From the NCBI GenBank assembly GCA_025517425.1, contig JAOPJY010000001.1:854217-918216 (forward strand): DNA of 64,000 nt, written 5' to 3'. Below the pieces are notes generated by a model. It did no database searches and was not told where the DNA came from. It was given only the letters and a program-made list of their open reading frames with translations. Each line of letters begins with the position of its first letter. Positions within the stretch are counted from its first letter, which is position 1. The DNA is from Halobacteria archaeon AArc-dxtr1. GTDB taxonomy: Archaea > Halobacteriota > Halobacteria > Halobacteriales > Natrialbaceae. Shown here in pieces: positions 10,671 to 48,233 of this stretch. A program made the translations under genes and the position numbers.

Positions 10671-11834
10671 TTAGAAGTGATATCCCTGCGTTTCGAGGAG
10701 GTGGTAGGCACTGACGCCCCAGACGTAGCTCTGTCCGGGCCACCAGGTGCGTGCGTTGTTCACGCCAGCGATGAGCACGCCGTCGGAATCTTCCGGATCA
10801 GGGTGATAGCTGACAGAGCCGCTGTCGCCATCTATCAGGTCCATCTCACCGCCCCAGCGAATCTGCCCGCGTCGGCAGAACTCGTCGGTGAAACACGTGA
10901 TCGCGTCGATTCCCTGGATCGCTCCGCTCGTGTGGCCGGTCATCGAACCCACCTTCTCTAAGTACTCGTCGCGCGCGATGAGATCTGCGAGTCCCCAGCG
11001 AGTGTACTGACCGTTGACGCGGACCGGCGGACTCTGGTCGATGATCGATCCGGGTTCGACCTCGCCGTTTGGCTCTACGGCCACGATATCCTCGGCTGGG
11101 TAGGCGTTTCTGACCGTTCCCAGTTCGATTGAACTGCCGTGCTCGACCGGAAGCGAGAGCGGCTTTCCGCGGACGTTGTCGCTCCCCTCTGCGTAATAGG
11201 CGTGTTCAGCCGTGGAGAAAAACGGCCCGTCGCCGTCGCGATGGTGGAGCGCCGGACCAAGCGTTGCCGTGCTGTCGTCCGTCTCGACGGAAACGCCAGC
11301 GGGAGCGCCGTCGGAAAGCTCACTCGCCAGTCGCGGCTCGACCTCGCCCGGATTCCGACCGTCTTCGAGTTCGGTGATCTGCTCGACGTCGATCGTGACG
11401 TCTGTGATCATGTCTGCGATATCCGACAGGGTGCCCGTGCTGACCGATACTCCGACGGAGACCGACGCGGTTCCCTCGTCGTAAGAGCTCGGAACGACGG
11501 TGCTTCCGAGGTAGCCGGTAACCCGCAGCCGCGAGAGCCAGTCGTTTAGTCGGATTGCCGATTCGACGGCGGCGTACCAGTCAGCCGGTACCGTTCGCGT
11601 CCGTTCAGTGAGCGACCACGGATCGTCGTGGTCCTCACGAACCAGCGCGGTGACGACCGGAACCTCGCCATCGTCGGCCGTCAGAAAGTGGTCAACGTCG
11701 AGGAACTGAGCCATTCCGAGCGCGTAGCCGCCGCTGGCGAGCGTACGGAGGAACTCCCGTCGGTCCATCCCGGTATCGACGCGCTCGCGAAGCGTTGCTA
11801 GTGACTGGGTGCGTGTCGATTCGTCAGTTGCCAT
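10671..11834 (-). CDS. Tat-exported trypsin-like serine peptidase homologue
   Basis: This 387-residue protein has a twin-arginine leader (MDRREFLRTLASGGYALG, residues 23-40). Motifs of the chymotrypsin fold are present in the right order: His in STAEHAYY (residue 211), Asp in AEDIVAVE (249) and Ser in DGDSGSVSY (338). They are joined by MTGHTSGAIQG, a typical S1 strand, and two cysteines (314, 320). I infer an exported serine peptidase. I start at MATDESTRTQ; 89 codons upstream are open but look non-coding. The small membrane protein follows directly. Confidence 0.7.
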   Translation of the reverse strand: MATDESTRTQSLATLRERVDTGMDRREFLRTLASGGYALGMAQFLDVDHFLTADDGEVPVVTALVREDHDDPWSLTERTRTVPADWYAAVESAIRLNDWLSRLRVTGYLGSTVVPSSYDEGTASVSVGVSVSTGTLSDIADMITDVTIDVEQITELEDGRNPGEVEPRLASELSDGAPAGVSVETDDSTATLGPALHHRDGDGPFFSTAEHAYYAEGSDNVRGKPLSLPVEHGSSIELGTVRNAYPAEDIVAVEPNGEVEPGSIIDQSPPVRVNGQYTRWGLADLIARDEYLEKVGSMTGHTSGAIQGIDAITCFTDEFCRRGQIRWGGEMDLIDGDSGSVSYHPDPEDSDGVLIAGVNNARTWWPGQSYVWGVSAYHLLETQGYHF

Positions 11835-12267
11835 TCCTGTCGTCGGCCGTCTCGTCGTGTCTTCGATCGTCAGTGTACCCGCCGGCAGACTGCAGTCGCC
11901 GACCCCGGTCGTGAGTGCCCGAATCTCCGATAACGATCCCAGTATCCGCCCAGTGAGTCGATAGCAATTCTGCCTGCAAGTGCCGTCAACGGACCCCTTC
12001 GAGTCGCCAGACAGCGTTTTCAATCTGTGTAGCGCTCCGATTGCAGTGGCCTCGGTGCTGTGACGGCCCGAACCGTTCGAGCCGTGTCGTTCGACTAACA
12101 CGCGGAGAGACGGTCAGAGACGGACGATAGGCGGCCCCTATGAGACGGTATGATTCGATTACTCACCCCTATCCTTCGCATAACAATGTCGGGGTTGCTG
12201 GTAGCGTGGCGTGCGGTCTCATACGCTCCTTGGGATACGAAGCCGGTTCGACTCCGGTTGGGAGTCT
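11835..12267. other. Intergenic region with no supported gene
   Basis: No open frame here has haloarchaeal coding character. The minus-strand frame that continues from the peptidase gene is basic and cysteine-containing and is probably not translated. Near the right end (12242-12258) a GCCGG-TTCGACT-CCGGT segment imitates a tRNA T-arm, but no complete cloverleaf can be built around it. Confidence 0.5.
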
Positions 12268-12887: not shown

Positions 12888-14471
12888 ATGGCAGACATGA
12901 GCTCACGAAATCTACTCGTTGCCCTGGTAGCAGCGCTGATGGTCGGTGCCGCCCTCGCGGTCGGAGGCGGGGCCGCCGTTCCAGCCCAGGACGACGACCA
13001 AGCGACGGACGAGACGCCAGAGACGGCTGACGAATCGCCACTCGACGTTGTAATCGAAGAGCCAACCATCCTCACGGTCGATGACTTAGAGGAGTGGGGG
13101 GCTGACGACGCTACCGAGAACGGTGTTGACGATGCTGACGACACCGAAGTCGACGATACCGAAGCGGACGATAACGGCGTTGACGACGGCGTCGAAGAAA
13201 ACGGCGTTGACGACGCCGAAATGGACGATAACGGTGTCGACGACGATGCTGCCGTCGACGAGTCCCTTCACGTAGCGATCGACGATGCGAACGTCTACAC
13301 GGAAGCAGCCACACAGGCTGACGCCGATGCCGAAGACGGCCAGATCACCGTCGAATCGGCCACCATCTTCGTCGTCGCGGACGCACAGCTAGACGACGTC
13401 GACGATAACGGCGTTGACGATGCCGAGATGGACGACAACGGCGTCGATGACGGCGACGACATCGACGAGGAAGAAGACGTGGATGAGCGACCGACCGGCG
13501 AGAACGATGTCGCCGAGAACGGCGTCGAAAACGACGATAACGGCGTTGACGACGCCGAGATGGACGAGAACGGCGTCGACGACGCTGACGACAGCGTCGA
13601 AGAGAACGGCGTCGATGACGCCGACAATGGCGAAATAGACGATAACGGTGTCGACGAATACGTCGACATCGAGCAAGCCACTGTCTTCGTCGTCATCCAC
13701 GACGACGGCGACCAGACCGATGACGGAGTCGCTAACGATGACGACGGGATGGATGACAACGGCGCCGATGACGCTGAGATAGACGAAAGCGGCGTCGATG
13801 ACGCTGACAACGGCGTCGACGACACCGAAGCGGATGATAACGGTGTTGACGACGCTGACAACGGCGTCGACGACACCGACACTGAGGTTGACGACAACGG
13901 TGTCGACGATACCACGGACGCCGATGTCCACATCCAGCAGGCAGACATCTACGTCGTCCACCACGACGACGCAGCCCCGGTTGATGAGAACGGTGTCGAC
14001 GACGCCGAGATGAACGATGACGAACTAGATGAGACTGACAACGGCGTTGACGAGACCGAAGCGAACGATAACGGCGTTGACGACGCTGACGACGGCGTCG
14101 AAGAAAACGGCGTTGACGAGACCGAAGCGGACGATAACGGCGTTGATGACGCTGACGATGGAGAAATGAACGATAACGGTGTCGATGACACTGCAGAGAA
14201 CGGTGTCGACGACGCTGACAACGGTGTCGACGATACCGAAGTGGACGACAACGGCGTCGATGACGTAAGTCAGGACGCTGACGTCCACATCCAGCAGGCA
14301 ACTATCGTCGTCGTTCACGACGATGTCGCAGATATGCCAGCGGAGCCGCCTGCTGAGGACAACGACTACGACAACGGCGAGGATGACGACTACGACAACG
14401 GCGAGGATGACGACTACGACAACGACGACGGTGTCGAGCAGGCAGCGGTCGCGAGCGCGTGCCACTGTTAA
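12888..14471 (+). CDS. Exported Asp-rich repeat protein (DDNGVDD repeats)
   Basis: This protein of about 527 residues starts with a Sec-type signal (MSSRNLLVALVAALMVGAAL). The mature chain is extremely acidic. It carries many copies of an 8-12 residue unit around DDNGVDD[AT]E, which fits the calcium-loop pattern [DE]xDxNGxxD. Short Val/Ile-rich modules such as DVHIQQADIYVVHHDD and YVDIEQATVFVVIHDD interrupt them about five times. The C-terminus has three DDDYDNGE copies and ends with ACHC; there is no PGF tail. I infer an extracellular cation-binding protein. Start 12888 or 12897 is possible. Confidence 0.72.
   Translation: MADMSSRNLLVALVAALMVGAALAVGGGAAVPAQDDDQATDETPETADESPLDVVIEEPTILTVDDLEEWGADDATENGVDDADDTEVDDTEADDNGVDDGVEENGVDDAEMDDNGVDDDAAVDESLHVAIDDANVYTEAATQADADAEDGQITVESATIFVVADAQLDDVDDNGVDDAEMDDNGVDDGDDIDEEEDVDERPTGENDVAENGVENDDNGVDDAEMDENGVDDADDSVEENGVDDADNGEIDDNGVDEYVDIEQATVFVVIHDDGDQTDDGVANDDDGMDDNGADDAEIDESGVDDADNGVDDTEADDNGVDDADNGVDDTDTEVDDNGVDDTTDADVHIQQADIYVVHHDDAAPVDENGVDDAEMNDDELDETDNGVDETEANDNGVDDADDGVEENGVDETEADDNGVDDADDGEMNDNGVDDTAENGVDDADNGVDDTEVDDNGVDDVSQDADVHIQQATIVVVHDDVADMPAEPPAEDNDYDNGEDDDYDNGEDDDYDNDDGVEQAAVASACHC
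13105..14265 (+). repeat. Coding repeats for DDNGVDD units
   Basis: The DNA repeats GACGATAACGGCGTTGACGA with synonymous changes (GGC/GGT, GTT/GTC, GAC/GAT) in dozens of copies, in frame. The third-position drift shows that the repeats are kept for protein sequence and are not a fresh expansion. Longer blocks combining EENGVDETEADDNGVDDAD-type units recur near 14040-14150, which suggests later block duplications. Confidence 0.85.
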
Positions 14472-22444: not shown

Positions 22445-24160
22445 CTACGGACTGTACTCGACGACGTGGATACCGGAGTACATGCCCATAAAGACGACGC
22501 GGCCGTCCGGCAGAACCTCCATGTCGTAGGCAGCCTCAATTGGGTTGCCCGGCAGGAATTCCTCGATCTCGACGCTCCCGTCGTCGTTGAACGTCAGATA
22601 GCGGATGACGTCCATGTTCGAGGGATTCATGAAGAACTGTTTGCCCTCGAAATAGGGGTCAAGCGCCCCCTCGCCGTACTCGTCAGAGTACCGGTAGGCG
22701 ACACCAGCATCCGCAGATCCACCCGCGTCGAGTTCGGACCAGGTGGTCTCGCCGGGACGTGGCATGTCCGCCCAGGCGGCCGCATCCTCGTAGCTGGCGA
22801 AACTCTGGGGATGCCACAGCAACGCCGGCGTCACGTCCGGAATGTGCTCGATGCCGGTGTTGTTCGGCGAGCGGTTGCGCAGGTTGTCGAACCAGAACGG
22901 CTGGCGCGGCTGATCGTTCTCGAAGTCGTAGTCGCGGTTCGGATAGTACCCCTTAAAGAACGGGTAGCCCGCGTTCCCCGGCTTACAAAAGAGGTGGTGT
23001 GTGGCGTGACCCACTGTCCCCAGGTCGAAGTCCCACTCGGGAGCGTCGTTGCCGTAGTCGCTTACGAACGGGATCCCGGTGTGCTCGTCGACGTGGAGGT
23101 TGAACGGGTTGCGAAGTCCCATCACGTAGATTTCGGGATGGAACTCCTCCGCAGCGTAGGACTCGCCCGTCTCCCGTTCCCAGTACGCTTTGAGGTTGCC
23201 CTCCGGAATCTCGTAGCCGTTCTCGGAGGGGGTGATGCGCAGAAGCTTCCCGCGGAGGTCGGCCGTATTTCCAGACGTTCGCTGGGCGTCGGAAACCGCC
23301 GCCGGTCGGCCGCCGACGTCGCCGTCTCGCTCGTCGGTCATCGAATAGTCGATCTCGGGCCGATGGGGTGCGCCGACGTTGTTCGACTCGTCGCCGGTGC
23401 TGATCCAGAGGTCTCCCTCCGGGCCGAACTCGAGGCAGCCGCCGTAGTGACAGCAGGTCTCGAGCTGAACCGGGACCTCGAGAATTACCTCCTCGGAGTC
23501 GGGATCTAAGCCGTCGCCGTCCATCTCGAACCGAGAGATGAGCTGGGAGGCCGTCGTGATATCCTCGTTGTAGGGGTTGTCGATGAAGTCGAGATCGTCG
23601 CTTGCAGGATGGTAGAAGACGTAGACGTAACCGGTCTCTGCGAAGCTGGGATCGACGGCGATCCCCTGCCCGCCGAGTTCGCTCGCGTTCCCACCGGTGA
23701 GCTCCTCGGAGCCGACGATCACGTCGAGTTCGAGCGCCACGGTATGGTCTTCGGTATCCGGGTCGACGTAACAGATCTCGGTGACCTCGTCGCCGTGGAT
23801 GTTGACGTCGGCACCCTTTCCGATGTACCAAATGCGGCCCTCCGGATCGACGTCCATCTCCATCAACTCGCCGCTCGACTCGTGACCCAGGTCACGGACC
23901 TCGTAGTTGTCCCAGTCGGTGGCTGCCCCGGGGTCTGGCACCCAGTCGTGGTCTCTGTGCCAGTCTGGAACCGGTATTTCGAGTGGGTCGTCGCCGTTTC
24001 CGTTCTCACCGTTTCCGTTCTCACCGTTTCCGTTCTCGTCGTTAGGATCGTCGTCGCCGTCATCGCCGAGGCAGCCGGCCAATCCGATAGCGCTTGCTCC
24101 GCCGAGAGCCTGGGCAAGCCGGCGGATCCTCCCTTCAGTCGATGATGTGTCCTCGGTCAC
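22445..24160 (-). CDS. PQQ-dependent sugar dehydrogenase-type lipoprotein
   Basis: This protein of about 571 residues is exported by a Tat-like leader with a lipobox (RIRRLAQALGG ... GLAGCLGDD), then an NGNGE-rich linker. The body is a beta-propeller of the soluble glucose/sorbosone dehydrogenase type, with GQGIAVDPSFAETGYVYVFY, CCHYGGCLEFGPEGDLWIST and GLRNPFNLHVDEHTG motifs. I start at GTG 24160: the open frame runs 247 codons further, but a TTTTACTA box lies upstream of this start. PQQ use is inferred from family. Confidence 0.82.
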   Translation of the reverse strand: MTEDTSSTEGRIRRLAQALGGASAIGLAGCLGDDGDDDPNDENGNGENGNGENGNGDDPLEIPVPDWHRDHDWVPDPGAATDWDNYEVRDLGHESSGELMEMDVDPEGRIWYIGKGADVNIHGDEVTEICYVDPDTEDHTVALELDVIVGSEELTGGNASELGGQGIAVDPSFAETGYVYVFYHPASDDLDFIDNPYNEDITTASQLISRFEMDGDGLDPDSEEVILEVPVQLETCCHYGGCLEFGPEGDLWISTGDESNNVGAPHRPEIDYSMTDERDGDVGGRPAAVSDAQRTSGNTADLRGKLLRITPSENGYEIPEGNLKAYWERETGESYAAEEFHPEIYVMGLRNPFNLHVDEHTGIPFVSDYGNDAPEWDFDLGTVGHATHHLFCKPGNAGYPFFKGYYPNRDYDFENDQPRQPFWFDNLRNRSPNNTGIEHIPDVTPALLWHPQSFASYEDAAAWADMPRPGETTWSELDAGGSADAGVAYRYSDEYGEGALDPYFEGKQFFMNPSNMDVIRYLTFNDDGSVEIEEFLPGNPIEAAYDMEVLPDGRVVFMGMYSGIHVVEYSP

Positions 24161-44810: not shown

Positions 44811-45551
44811 CTACCGGCTCGGGGCGATCGCCGCCAGTGACTCGTCTTCGCGGACGAACGTCCGTGCGAGCTCGCTTTCGGCTCGCTGGAGGCGGTACGA
44901 GAGCGTCGAGCGCGGAATCCCCAGCTCGGCGGCCAGTTGGGTGAGATCGATAGCTCGCGGCGTCTCGTAGTAGCCGCGGTCGACGGCCGCCCGAAGCGCC
45001 TGGCGCTGTTCGGCCCGCAGCCTCTCGTCGGGGGTGTCGCGGTTCGGATCGACGTCCGTCAGTCGGAGCATCTCCATACCCGCACACTCGCCGACTTCCT
45101 CGCCCAGCGCGTCGAAGAATGTGTGGATCGGCGCCTCGTCGTCGAGGACGATCCGCCAGCGGTACCGGCGCCCCTCGCGGTACGTTTCGAAGAGCAGCCC
45201 CTCCCCTAACTGATCGAGAGCGACGTGCGGGACGGAGGTACAGACGTCCGTCCGATCCCAGTAGGTGTAGACGACCAGCTCGTCGCTCGAACGGTCGAGA
45301 ACCTGCGTCTCGCAGTCGGCGCCACAGTCGTCTCGGATCAGACAGTCCGCACAGTAGGTCACATCGCGGTAGGCGGTTTCGAGCGTCTCGAGAGCCGCCG
45401 CTGAGCCAGTGGCGTGGTCGACCCGCCAGAGACTCTCGGGGGTGACGTGACAGGAGAGCGATCGCACTTGCGTCCCGGGATTGTCCGCGAGGGCGTCTGC
45501 GACGGGGTTCGTCCCGGGATCGTACTCGAGGGCGAAGACGAACTCTCGCAT
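44811..45551 (-). CDS. HTH-10 (Bat-type) regulator with Cys-rich sensory part
   Basis: This 246-residue protein has a C-terminal HTH-10 domain: RAAVDRGYYETPRAIDLTQL, then AAELGIPRSTLSYRLQRAE, as in the Bat family. The N-terminal 150 residues are a sensory domain with CADCLIRDDCGADC, four cysteines that could bind a metal. Since the next genes on this strand are a small membrane protein and a metal ATPase, a metal-responsive regulator is inferred. I start at MREFVFALEYD; the open frame upstream is long but non-coding in character. Confidence 0.85.
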   Translation of the reverse strand: MREFVFALEYDPGTNPVADALADNPGTQVRSLSCHVTPESLWRVDHATGSAAALETLETAYRDVTYCADCLIRDDCGADCETQVLDRSSDELVVYTYWDRTDVCTSVPHVALDQLGEGLLFETYREGRRYRWRIVLDDEAPIHTFFDALGEEVGECAGMEMLRLTDVDPNRDTPDERLRAEQRQALRAAVDRGYYETPRAIDLTQLAAELGIPRSTLSYRLQRAESELARTFVREDESLAAIAPSR

Positions 45552-45608
45552 GCGTCGCCGTAGGGGCTCACGGGAAAAAGCGTTCCCGGTGGGCCACGTA
45601 GAGGGCGT

Positions 45609-46148
45609 GTGCCACGACGCGATTCCCAGCCGGGAGTGCGAGAGCGGTTGCGAGGGCTCTGGGAGTTCTATCTGGCGTACACGAACACAGGGGTTCACAC
45701 CGCTGCAGCCGCCGCACTCGCGATTTTCGGGCTGCTCGTCTTCGTCGACCCCCTGTTCGCTGTCGTCGCCATTGCCTCGTACGTGCTCCCGCCGCTTGTT
45801 CTGTACGCACGCTCGAACGGAAGACGGAGCGTAGAGCCCATAGGAGACAGCGTAAAGCGCGCACCGAATCGGCCAGATGCGAGTCGGCGTCGCGAAAATG
45901 CGACTGCGGATCCACCACGCACAGGAGCAGCTACTGCTGGAGACGAGCCCGATCGCAACCCCAACAGGAGCGTGGATGCGGGCGACGGCGATGAGGCGGA
46001 CACTGACACGGACGGCGACACGGACGATGGCGATGCTGACACCGACAACGGCGACACGGACACCGATACAGATGCAGACGGTGGCGACACGGACACCGAT
46101 ACAGATGCAGACGGTGGCGACACGGACACCGATACGGATCGCGCCTAG
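45609..46148 (+). CDS. Membrane protein with repetitive Asp/Thr tail
   Basis: This 179-residue protein has a GTG start, two membrane helices (TAAAAALAIFGLLVFVDPLF and the AVVAIASYVLPPLVLYA stretch) and a long tail of GDTDTDTDADG units. The tail is built of 11-residue repeats. It has no export signal beyond the helices. Its 5' end is divergent from the HTH-10 gene (57 nt between). Function is unknown; the tail should be flexible and strongly charged. Confidence 0.65.
   Translation: MPRRDSQPGVRERLRGLWEFYLAYTNTGVHTAAAAALAIFGLLVFVDPLFAVVAIASYVLPPLVLYARSNGRRSVEPIGDSVKRAPNRPDASRRRENATADPPRTGAATAGDEPDRNPNRSVDAGDGDEADTDTDGDTDDGDADTDNGDTDTDTDADGGDTDTDTDADGGDTDTDTDRA
46050..46138 (+). repeat. 33-bp tandem repeat coding GDTDTDTDADG
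   Basis: Two perfect 33-nt units (46050-46082 and 46083-46115) and a partial third follow one another in frame. Earlier codons (from 45998) are degenerate versions of the same unit. Perfect copies point to recent slippage or unequal exchange, so copy number may vary among strains. Confidence 0.85.
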
Positions 46149-46165
46149 CTCGACAGTGACGAGCT
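46147..46165 (+). terminator. Hairpin overlapping the stop codon
   Basis: AGCTCG (46147) and CGAGCT (46160) form a 6-bp stem with a 7-nt loop that begins inside the stop codon of the membrane protein gene. It may mark the transcript end, although archaeal termination mostly relies on oligo-T, which is missing here. Confidence 0.3.
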
Positions 46166-46182
46166 GTCTCGTGATCAGAAAT

Positions 46183-46199
46183 AAACTAAATAGTAGTTT
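46183..46199 (+). promoter_or_regulatory. AAACTA dyad over the TATA region of the dehydrogenase/hydratase gene
   Basis: AAACTA-AATAG-TAGTTT is a perfect 6-base inverted repeat inside an AT-rich TATA-like stretch (AATAAACTAAATAG). It lies about 60 nt before the 46251 start, so a short leader is expected. Its place over the likely TATA box fits a repressor site for fatty-acid metabolism, which is inference. Confidence 0.4.
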
Positions 46200-46250
46200 C
46201 CAGCCGAGACCGGGGAAACGTTCAAACCGCTGCCTGCCCCACGTTGTGAC

Positions 46251-48233
46251 ATGGATATCGAGGACGTCAACACTGTCGCAGTTCTCGGCGCCGGAAATAT
46301 GGGTCACGGAATCGCAGAGGTTGCAGCCATCGCAGGCTACGACGTGGCGATGCGCGACATCAACGAGGAACTGGTACAGGACGGCTACGAGTCGATCGAG
46401 TGGTCGCTTTCGAAGCTCGTCGAGAAAGATCGACTGACCCAGGACGAGGCCGATGCCGCCGCCGAGCGCGTCCGACCGATCGTCGACGTCGAGGAGGCCG
46501 TCGGCGACGCCGACGTCGTCATCGAGGCGGTTCCCGAGCGAATGGAGATCAAAGAGGAGGTCTACGAGGAGGTCTGTGCGGCGGCGCCCGAGCAGGCGAT
46601 CCTCGCGACGAACACCTCGAGCCTCTCGATCACGGCGCTTTCGGAGTTTACCGACCGACCAGAGCGGTTCTGCGGGATGCACTTTTTCAACCCGCCGGTG
46701 CGGATGGATCTCGTCGAGGTCATCACGGGTGAGGAGACCGACGAGGACGTCCTCGACCTGATCGAGGCGCTCGCCGAGGACTTCGGTAAGACGCCCGTCC
46801 GCGTCCACAAGGACGCACCGGGGTTCGTCGCCAACCGCATTCTCGTTCCGCTGATGAACGAGGCCTGCTGGCTCGTCTCCGAGGAGACGGCGACCATCGC
46901 CGAGGTCGACTCGACCACCAAGTACGGGATGGGACTCCCGATGGGCACCTTCGAGCTGGGCGATCACGTCGGCAACGACGTCAGCTATCACGTTCTCGAG
47001 TACATGCACGAAGAGCTTGGCGACCCCTACGAGCCCGCGCCGCTGCTCGCCGAGGTCGTCGACGAAGAGAAACTCGGAAAGAAAACCGGCTCGGGCTTCT
47101 ACGAGTACGAGGACGGGCCGGGCGTCGAGATTCCGACCGACGAACAGTCCGACCTCGTCCGCGAGCGCCTGATCGCCACGATGGCCAACGAGGCGGCCAA
47201 GCTACTCGGCGACGGCGTTGCAACCCCCGACGCGATCGACAAGGCGGTCACGCTCGGCGCGGGCTTCCCCGACGGGCCGGTACAGATCGCCGAGGAGTTC
47301 GGCCTCGACGCGGCCCTCCAGACACTCGAGTCCGCCGCCGAGGAGACGGGCCATCCCCGGTACGAACCGGCCGATTATCTCCGTGAACGCGCAGAAGTCG
47401 GTGGCTTCCGCGAGGGCGCCGAGAGCGAGGCTGGTGACGACGCGCCGTCGTTCGAGGCGATCCGGGTCGAGTATCCCGGGGAGATGGTTGGCGAAATCGT
47501 CCTCGATCGTCCCCACCGCATGAACACGATCAGTGACACGACCCTCGACGAACTCGTCGAGGCCGTCGAGTTGCTCGAAGCCGACGAGGACGTTCGGGCC
47601 ATCTTGCTTACCGGCGACGGTGACCGGGCGTTCTCCGCCGGCGCGGACGTCCAGAGCATGGCCGCTGGAGGTGCAGATCCGATCGACGCCGTCGAGCTCT
47701 CGAAGCGAGGGCAGTCGGTCTTCGGGACGCTCGAATCGGCTGATCTGCCGGTCGTCGCAGGAATCGACGGCTACTGCCTGGGTGGTGGGATGGAACTTGC
47801 GACCTGTGCCGACCTGCGCGTCGCGAGCGACCGCTCGGAGTTCGGCCAACCCGAACTGAATCTCGGACTACTGCCCGGCTGGGGCGGGACCCAGCGCCTC
47901 TCAGCGATCGTCGGCGAGGGACGTGCCAAGGAGATTATCCTCACCGCCGACCGGTTCGACGCCGAGACGATGGCCGACTACGGCTTCGTTACGGAGGTCG
48001 TCGACCGCGAGGAGATCGACGAGCGCGCGTTCGAGCTCGCGGCACAGCTGGCCGGCGGGCCGCCGATCGCGACGAAGTACACCAAACGGGCGATGCTCGC
48101 CGGCCGCGACGACACCGACGCCGGCCTCGAGTACGAGTCCTCGGCGTTTGGCCACCTGATGGGAACCGACGACCTGATGACGGGCATGACCGCGTTCATG
48201 GGCGATCACGAGCCGGAGTTCGAAGGAAAGTAA
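46251..48233 (+). CDS. 3-hydroxyacyl-CoA dehydrogenase/enoyl-CoA hydratase fusion
   Basis: This 660-residue protein joins a 3-hydroxyacyl-CoA dehydrogenase (residues 1-390; NAD site VAVLGAGNMGHGIAEVAAI, HFFNPPVRMDLVEVI) to a crotonase-fold hydratase (about 400-660; AFSAGADVQSM, CLGGGMELATCADLRVAS). The order is reversed from bacterial FadB, where the hydratase is N-terminal; archaeal bifunctional enzymes of this order are known. It should carry out two consecutive steps of beta-oxidation or the reverse path. Confidence 0.93.
   Translation: MDIEDVNTVAVLGAGNMGHGIAEVAAIAGYDVAMRDINEELVQDGYESIEWSLSKLVEKDRLTQDEADAAAERVRPIVDVEEAVGDADVVIEAVPERMEIKEEVYEEVCAAAPEQAILATNTSSLSITALSEFTDRPERFCGMHFFNPPVRMDLVEVITGEETDEDVLDLIEALAEDFGKTPVRVHKDAPGFVANRILVPLMNEACWLVSEETATIAEVDSTTKYGMGLPMGTFELGDHVGNDVSYHVLEYMHEELGDPYEPAPLLAEVVDEEKLGKKTGSGFYEYEDGPGVEIPTDEQSDLVRERLIATMANEAAKLLGDGVATPDAIDKAVTLGAGFPDGPVQIAEEFGLDAALQTLESAAEETGHPRYEPADYLRERAEVGGFREGAESEAGDDAPSFEAIRVEYPGEMVGEIVLDRPHRMNTISDTTLDELVEAVELLEADEDVRAILLTGDGDRAFSAGADVQSMAAGGADPIDAVELSKRGQSVFGTLESADLPVVAGIDGYCLGGGMELATCADLRVASDRSEFGQPELNLGLLPGWGGTQRLSAIVGEGRAKEIILTADRFDAETMADYGFVTEVVDREEIDERAFELAAQLAGGPPIATKYTKRAMLAGRDDTDAGLEYESSAFGHLMGTDDLMTGMTAFMGDHEPEFEGK

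Follow-up and report, generated by a model that had tools for sequence, protein, structure and literature searches.

Exported Natrialbaceae proteins in which putative beta motifs alternate with acidic spacers

Halomucin of Haloquadratum walsbyi is an exported acidic haloarchaeal protein that is thought to hold a hydrated coat. It is likened by description to the protein considered here; it is very much larger and has other domains. Exported haloarchaeal proteins with DUF7282 (PF23951) and CARDB (PF07705) domains have the same type of signal peptide, the same motifs (three or six) and the same acidic spacers, and their genes lie beside a DUF7343 gene in several genera, as do six-motif genes. 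They differ from the present protein, in which Pfam finds neither domain. A set of Natrialbaceae period-5 proteins (L005, L011 and L014) is exported as well, and acidic NG(V/L)DD spacers separate its hydrophobic blocks of beta type. Its members differ in having another signal peptide and hydrophobic blocks of period 5 (LTIDELTIETMDVETLTIDELTVED), and Pfam gives no match for L005. Finally, the calcium loops of EF-hand, dockerin and thrombospondin type-3 (TSP3) repeats (Dx[DN]xDG) are similar to the repeated units of the present protein in their acidic residues around an NG turn. The calcium-loop pattern reads Dx[DN]xDGx[ILV][DSTN], with Asp obligatory at position 1 (PMC3123361).

Signal peptide and six hydrophobic motifs

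In the window, which is the whole stretch of 64,000 nucleotides analysed, positions 12888-14471 form one open frame of 527 residues (plus strand, as are all features of the gene given below). An earlier note on this DNA began the protein at the ATG at 12888. The likely start is the ATG three codons downstream, at 12897 (MSSRN...), because aligned relatives begin MSVRN or MNARN; with the start set by homology, the coding sequence spans 12897..14471. The protein has 152 Asp and 54 Glu residues and just two Lys or Arg, for a net charge of -204. A putative Sec-type signal peptide, MSSRNLLVALVAALMVGAALAVGGGAAVPA (12897..12986), is its sole strongly hydrophobic 19-residue segment. The signal has a single Arg and is therefore not of the twin-arginine kind; it can be aligned with those of relatives and belongs to their MSxRN/MNARN type. 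A profile of the signal and first motif scores the window gene at E 2.3e-22, the gene itself being a row of the underlying alignment. The export proposed in the earlier note stands, and so does its view that a PGF tail is lacking: no PGF match is present, and hydropathy outside the signal stays at or below 0.95 over 19 residues, so that neither the PGF motif nor the C-terminal transmembrane segment of PGF-CTERM archaeosortase substrates is found in the window protein.

Between the repeat blocks, which had been the subject of the earlier note, lie six hydrophobic segments that it overlooked: LDVVIEEPTILTV, LHVAIDDANVYTE, GQITVESATIFVV, EYVDIEQATVFVV, ADVHIQQADIYVV and ADVHIQQATIVVV. They follow the consensus [LI]x[VI]T[IV][ED][QE]AT[IV][FY]VV, or LxVTIEQATIFVV in short form. 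A score matrix trained on 41 proteins, the window protein included, finds exactly six motifs in the latter, with scores of 8.3-32.8 against a maximum of 3.95 in shuffled control sequences. Motif 1, LDVVIEEPTILTVDDL (13041..13088), scores 17.9 and coincides with an AlphaFold strand at residues 53-65. Motif 2, LHVAIDDANVYTEAAT (13266..13313), is atypical, with a score of 8.3 and short predicted strands within 128-138; one atypical motif is also present in most relatives, at a place that varies. Motifs 3, GQITVESATIFVVADA (13338..13385), and 4, EYVDIEQATVFVVIHD (13656..13703), both score 30.6 and match predicted strands at 152-165 and 257-272. Motif 5, ADVHIQQADIYVVHHD (13920..13967; score 32.0), corresponds to a strand at 345-360, and motif 6, ADVHIQQATIVVVHDD (14277..14324; score 32.8), to one at 465-477. 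Conservation of single motifs by their order along the chain is weak (median permutation fraction 0.18).

The AlphaFold run on the window protein, made with four input sequences, places strands on all six motifs and leaves every spacer as coil. A homologue from a Natrialbaceae metagenome-assembled genome (MAG), modelled in a second run, likewise shows strands on its five motifs and coil on its spacers, with two low-confidence helices elsewhere. Confidence is low in both (mean pLDDT 45.8 and 41.7; pTM 0.32 and 0.25), with motif blocks reaching up to 69. The strand residues fall almost exclusively in motifs, and since a strand assignment needs a partner, the models presumably pair motifs across spacers; the motifs probably pair into a beta sheet. 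Foldseek finds no solved structure that matches the models.

Relatives occur in 14 other genomes of the window's taxonomic family, the Natrialbaceae. Searched against 392 genomes of the order, the profile of signal and first motif hits 164, with every strong hit in the Natrialbaceae. Some of the weaker hits cover the signal part alone, so for the gene family this count can only be a ceiling. A DNA pattern for VTIE[QE]ATIFV matches contigs of Natronococcus and Natronorubrum and one Natrialbaceae MAG. A search of named genomes with the whole protein returned no match, nor did a plasmid search with a short N-terminal query. The plasmid search with a DUF7282-type member returned Haloterrigena and Natronorubrum sequences, mostly annotated 'hypothetical protein', and several of the family's hits agree in their coordinates with these plasmid records. 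Forty Natrialbaceae relatives were compared in full with the window protein. Among these 41 proteins, six motifs are found in 17, five in eight and three in 11, the last being of the DUF7282/CARDB type with the exception of L065. The signal peptide is common to the relatives, and the main class adds five or six hydrophobic beta motifs to it. Neither Pfam, NCBIfam above cut-off nor PDB sequences match the window protein, and no literature, experiment or expression data were found for this group of proteins. Judged from sequence comparison, these exported proteins are best read as one hitherto undescribed family, which is widespread in the Natrialbaceae and whose deposited members carry the annotation 'hypothetical protein'. 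A near-constant strand count is combined in it with acidic spacers that vary freely and with a cysteine tail that recurs at the C-terminus.

Acidic spacers and the question of calcium loops

The NGVDD units of the window protein occur in spacers 1 (13089..13265), 3 (13386..13655), 4 (13704..13919) and 5 (13968..14276), which are modelled as coil throughout. An acidic tail (14325..14459) follows, in which a 24-bp tandem repeat encodes three DDDYDNGE-type units. The repeats are real: 24 NGV[DE][DEN] units are observed against 0.09 in shuffles. The earlier note had counted dozens of [DE]xDxNGxxD units, which is true of this looser form; the strict form [DE].D.NG..D occurs ten times, against 0.13 expected in shuffles. 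Its view that silent third-base drift betrays selection on the protein is borne out, with pS at 0.71 and pN at 0.28 over 28 NG-centred ten-codon windows, the NG codons left out. The repeats are nevertheless not the conserved part of the protein. Distances between NG pairs are irregular, 6-18 residues inside blocks and up to 59 between them, with no fixed repeat. Spacer sequences differ wholly from one relative to the next, among them DDNGVDD, DDNETDDGVGT, EEPVDEEP and DDYENDEA, and acidity alone is kept. DDNGVDD is the unit of the window protein and L058, DNGLED of L057, DDNESD of L061, EADDYE of L074, EPVDEN of L055 and EPVEEE of L091. The strict unit is present in at most one copy in 20 of the 26 members with at least five motifs. 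Two relatives from the same genus, L052 and L053, have six motifs and one or no NGVD-type unit. When closely related members are compared pairwise, identity is 70-96% over the motifs, where gaps make up 0-7%, and 44-96% over the spacers, where they make up 5-38%. On these comparisons, the repeated DDNGVDD stretches are read as fast-changing spacers between strand segments.

The earlier note had likened the units to the calcium loops of dockerin and TSP3 repeats and proposed calcium or magnesium binding at the cell surface. As specific Ca or Mg loops of this kind, the units would fold round ions into a rigid surface rod. The excess of strict units over shuffles and the surplus of silent over replacement changes within them speak for such loops, as does L058, in which the 12-residue pattern D.[DN].[DN]G..[DNE]..[DE] occurs 24 times where 1.7 are expected. 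The window protein itself has none of these 12-mers, nor have most members. In the window protein, D.[DN].DG is absent and D.[DN].[DN]G occurs once. Glu occupies position 1 in 12 of the 13 units with an acidic start, where the pattern demands Asp, and position 8 is D or E after a valine at position 7, whereas the published EF-hand pattern is hydrophobic at position 8 (PMC3123361). Pfam-A, whose models include TSP3, dockerin and EF-hand, returns no family even with the cut-off relaxed to E 1, a result to be read knowing that HMMER may under-score biased sequence; PDB sequences are likewise without a match. AlphaFold models the units as coil at a pLDDT of about 45. The disorder so predicted, and the near absence of the unit from same-genus relatives and most of the family, come close to what the earlier note had named as grounds for giving up the idea, though the repeats are present in more distant relatives. 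Profile, pattern, conservation and folding tests thus lend the calcium-loop reading no support. Loops of the dockerin, TSP3 or EF-hand type were rejected on account of Glu at position 1, an acidic position 8, irregular spacing, lack of conservation in the family and the absence of a profile match, and we consider specific ion loops highly improbable. Unspecific cation binding by the acidic spacers is plausible. The better-looking 12-mers of L058 indicate that resemblance to calcium loops can drift closer, and haloarchaeal DxDNG repeats should not be taken for such loops. The spacers of L058 are nearly perfect period-8 DDNGVDDA arrays; calcium binding would be better tried on this protein than on that of the window.

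What the spacers keep is their composition, with a mean of 51% D/E (standard deviation 9) and almost no K/R; those of the window protein have 47% D/E and a K/R fraction of 0.0. The explanation that we favour, and to which we give about an even chance, is that the window protein is a secreted surface protein of strands and acidic spacers, with sheet-forming motifs, spacers acting as a brush, and cysteines that fix the chain. It would be exported by the Sec pathway as a chain built strand, acidic spacer, strand. After export, the six motifs would come together as a beta sheet, whether in a single molecule or across several. The spacers would stay unfolded as a charged brush or mesh that holds water and cations on the cell surface, hydrated and weakly cation-binding. 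The terminal cysteines could then hold the chain in place through disulfides or some other thiol linkage. DDNGVDD would be merely a spacer unit multiplied in this lineage. If confirmed, the protein would represent a natural salt-adapted strand-and-spacer material.

The spacers could alternatively be drifting low-complexity insertions whose only task is to keep the protein soluble and extended in brine, the six-motif beta domain doing the work, for instance by binding a partner or an envelope polymer. This accords with the free variation of spacer sequence and length (8-153 residues), with the nearly constant number of motifs and with the existence of spacer-poor members (L077, 334 aa). Acidity, however, is kept at 32-61% D/E by each of the 26 members that have five motifs or more, and codon changes in the NG units are mostly silent; composition therefore appears selected, and spacers that serve as filler are a possible, somewhat unlikely account.

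C-terminal cysteines and place in the genome

The frame ends in ACHC, as the earlier note had it. The Cys-His-Cys at 14460..14468 contains the only cysteines of the window protein, two within its last three residues. Counted from residue 33 onwards, the 26 members carrying five motifs or more have 22 cysteines in all, of which 16 fall within the five C-terminal residues (binomial 4e-28, relatedness ignored). A terminal Cys or CxC is present in 11 of these members, from six genera, and absent from 15; the tails take the forms ACHC, THCTC, TSCSC, TSCAC, TSC, ATAC, TAC and TNC. Disulfide cross-linking, metal binding and a thiol anchor may all be considered as roles. A more specific version, in which a split beta domain with six strands up to 150 disordered acidic residues apart is fixed to the envelope or cross-linked through the C-terminal Cys-x-Cys, an undescribed thiol or lipid attachment replacing the PGF/archaeosortase anchor, strikes us as unlikely. 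Confirmation of the favoured model would raise the question of surface retention without the known anchor.

Genome context links the family to the DUF7282/CARDB proteins. After its six motifs, L072 has a CARDB domain (E 2.7e-8) and then a DUF7282 domain (E 2.6e-43). Two proteins with three motifs, L069 and L071 (Haloterrigena and Natronorubrum), have a DUF7282-type part recognised by eye from L072, and share the locus of six-motif genes, with dihydroorotase-like and sugar-epimerase-like genes (named by eye) and a DUF7343 winged-helix protein. Given this shared locus, the simplest view is that the domain-free form and the DUF7282 form are variants within a single gene lineage. The window gene lies elsewhere, on its own, flanked by a DUF5658 gene and a glutamate dehydrogenase gene, which are far apart in same-genus genomes. 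At the old locus of the window genome (L109:5647-6639), the DUF7343-type gene and the next gene are 28 bp apart with nothing between them; two genomes of the same genus, G018 and G019, keep a six-motif gene there. The empty gap means that the gene has been lost at this place, and it lies elsewhere. Horizontal transfer was considered and set aside: in the N-terminal tree the window protein sits on a long branch in a loose grouping with members from its own genus, and relocation plus rapid change therefore suffices as an explanation.

The DUF7343 neighbour raises a further explanation. Part of the family has the gene of this winged-helix regulator immediately upstream, and the protein could serve the regulator as an envelope sensor or be its target. 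In seven of 20 neighbourhoods, the adjacent upstream gene on the same strand does encode a DUF7343 protein that probably has a membrane segment. Other loci adjoin a PEP-carboxykinase-like gene or lie elsewhere, and across the neighbourhoods of family members no functional gene partner is conserved at every locus. The window genome keeps the regulator at the old place without a six-motif gene, which is evidence against an obligate pair, and we regard the regulatory link as very unlikely.

Three other features of the window were recorded. At 10671-12101 on the minus strand, an ORF of 476 aa without a Pfam match appears by eye to be of the secreted serine-protease type. At 23994-24037, a perfect 15-bp repeat encodes a GENGN linker near the N-terminus of an apparently exported glucose/sorbosone-dehydrogenase-like protein, so named by eye. 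The minus-strand ORF at 44811-47009, which encodes an HVO_2928_N / HTH_10 regulator, contains a 33-bp tandem repeat (46017-46139).
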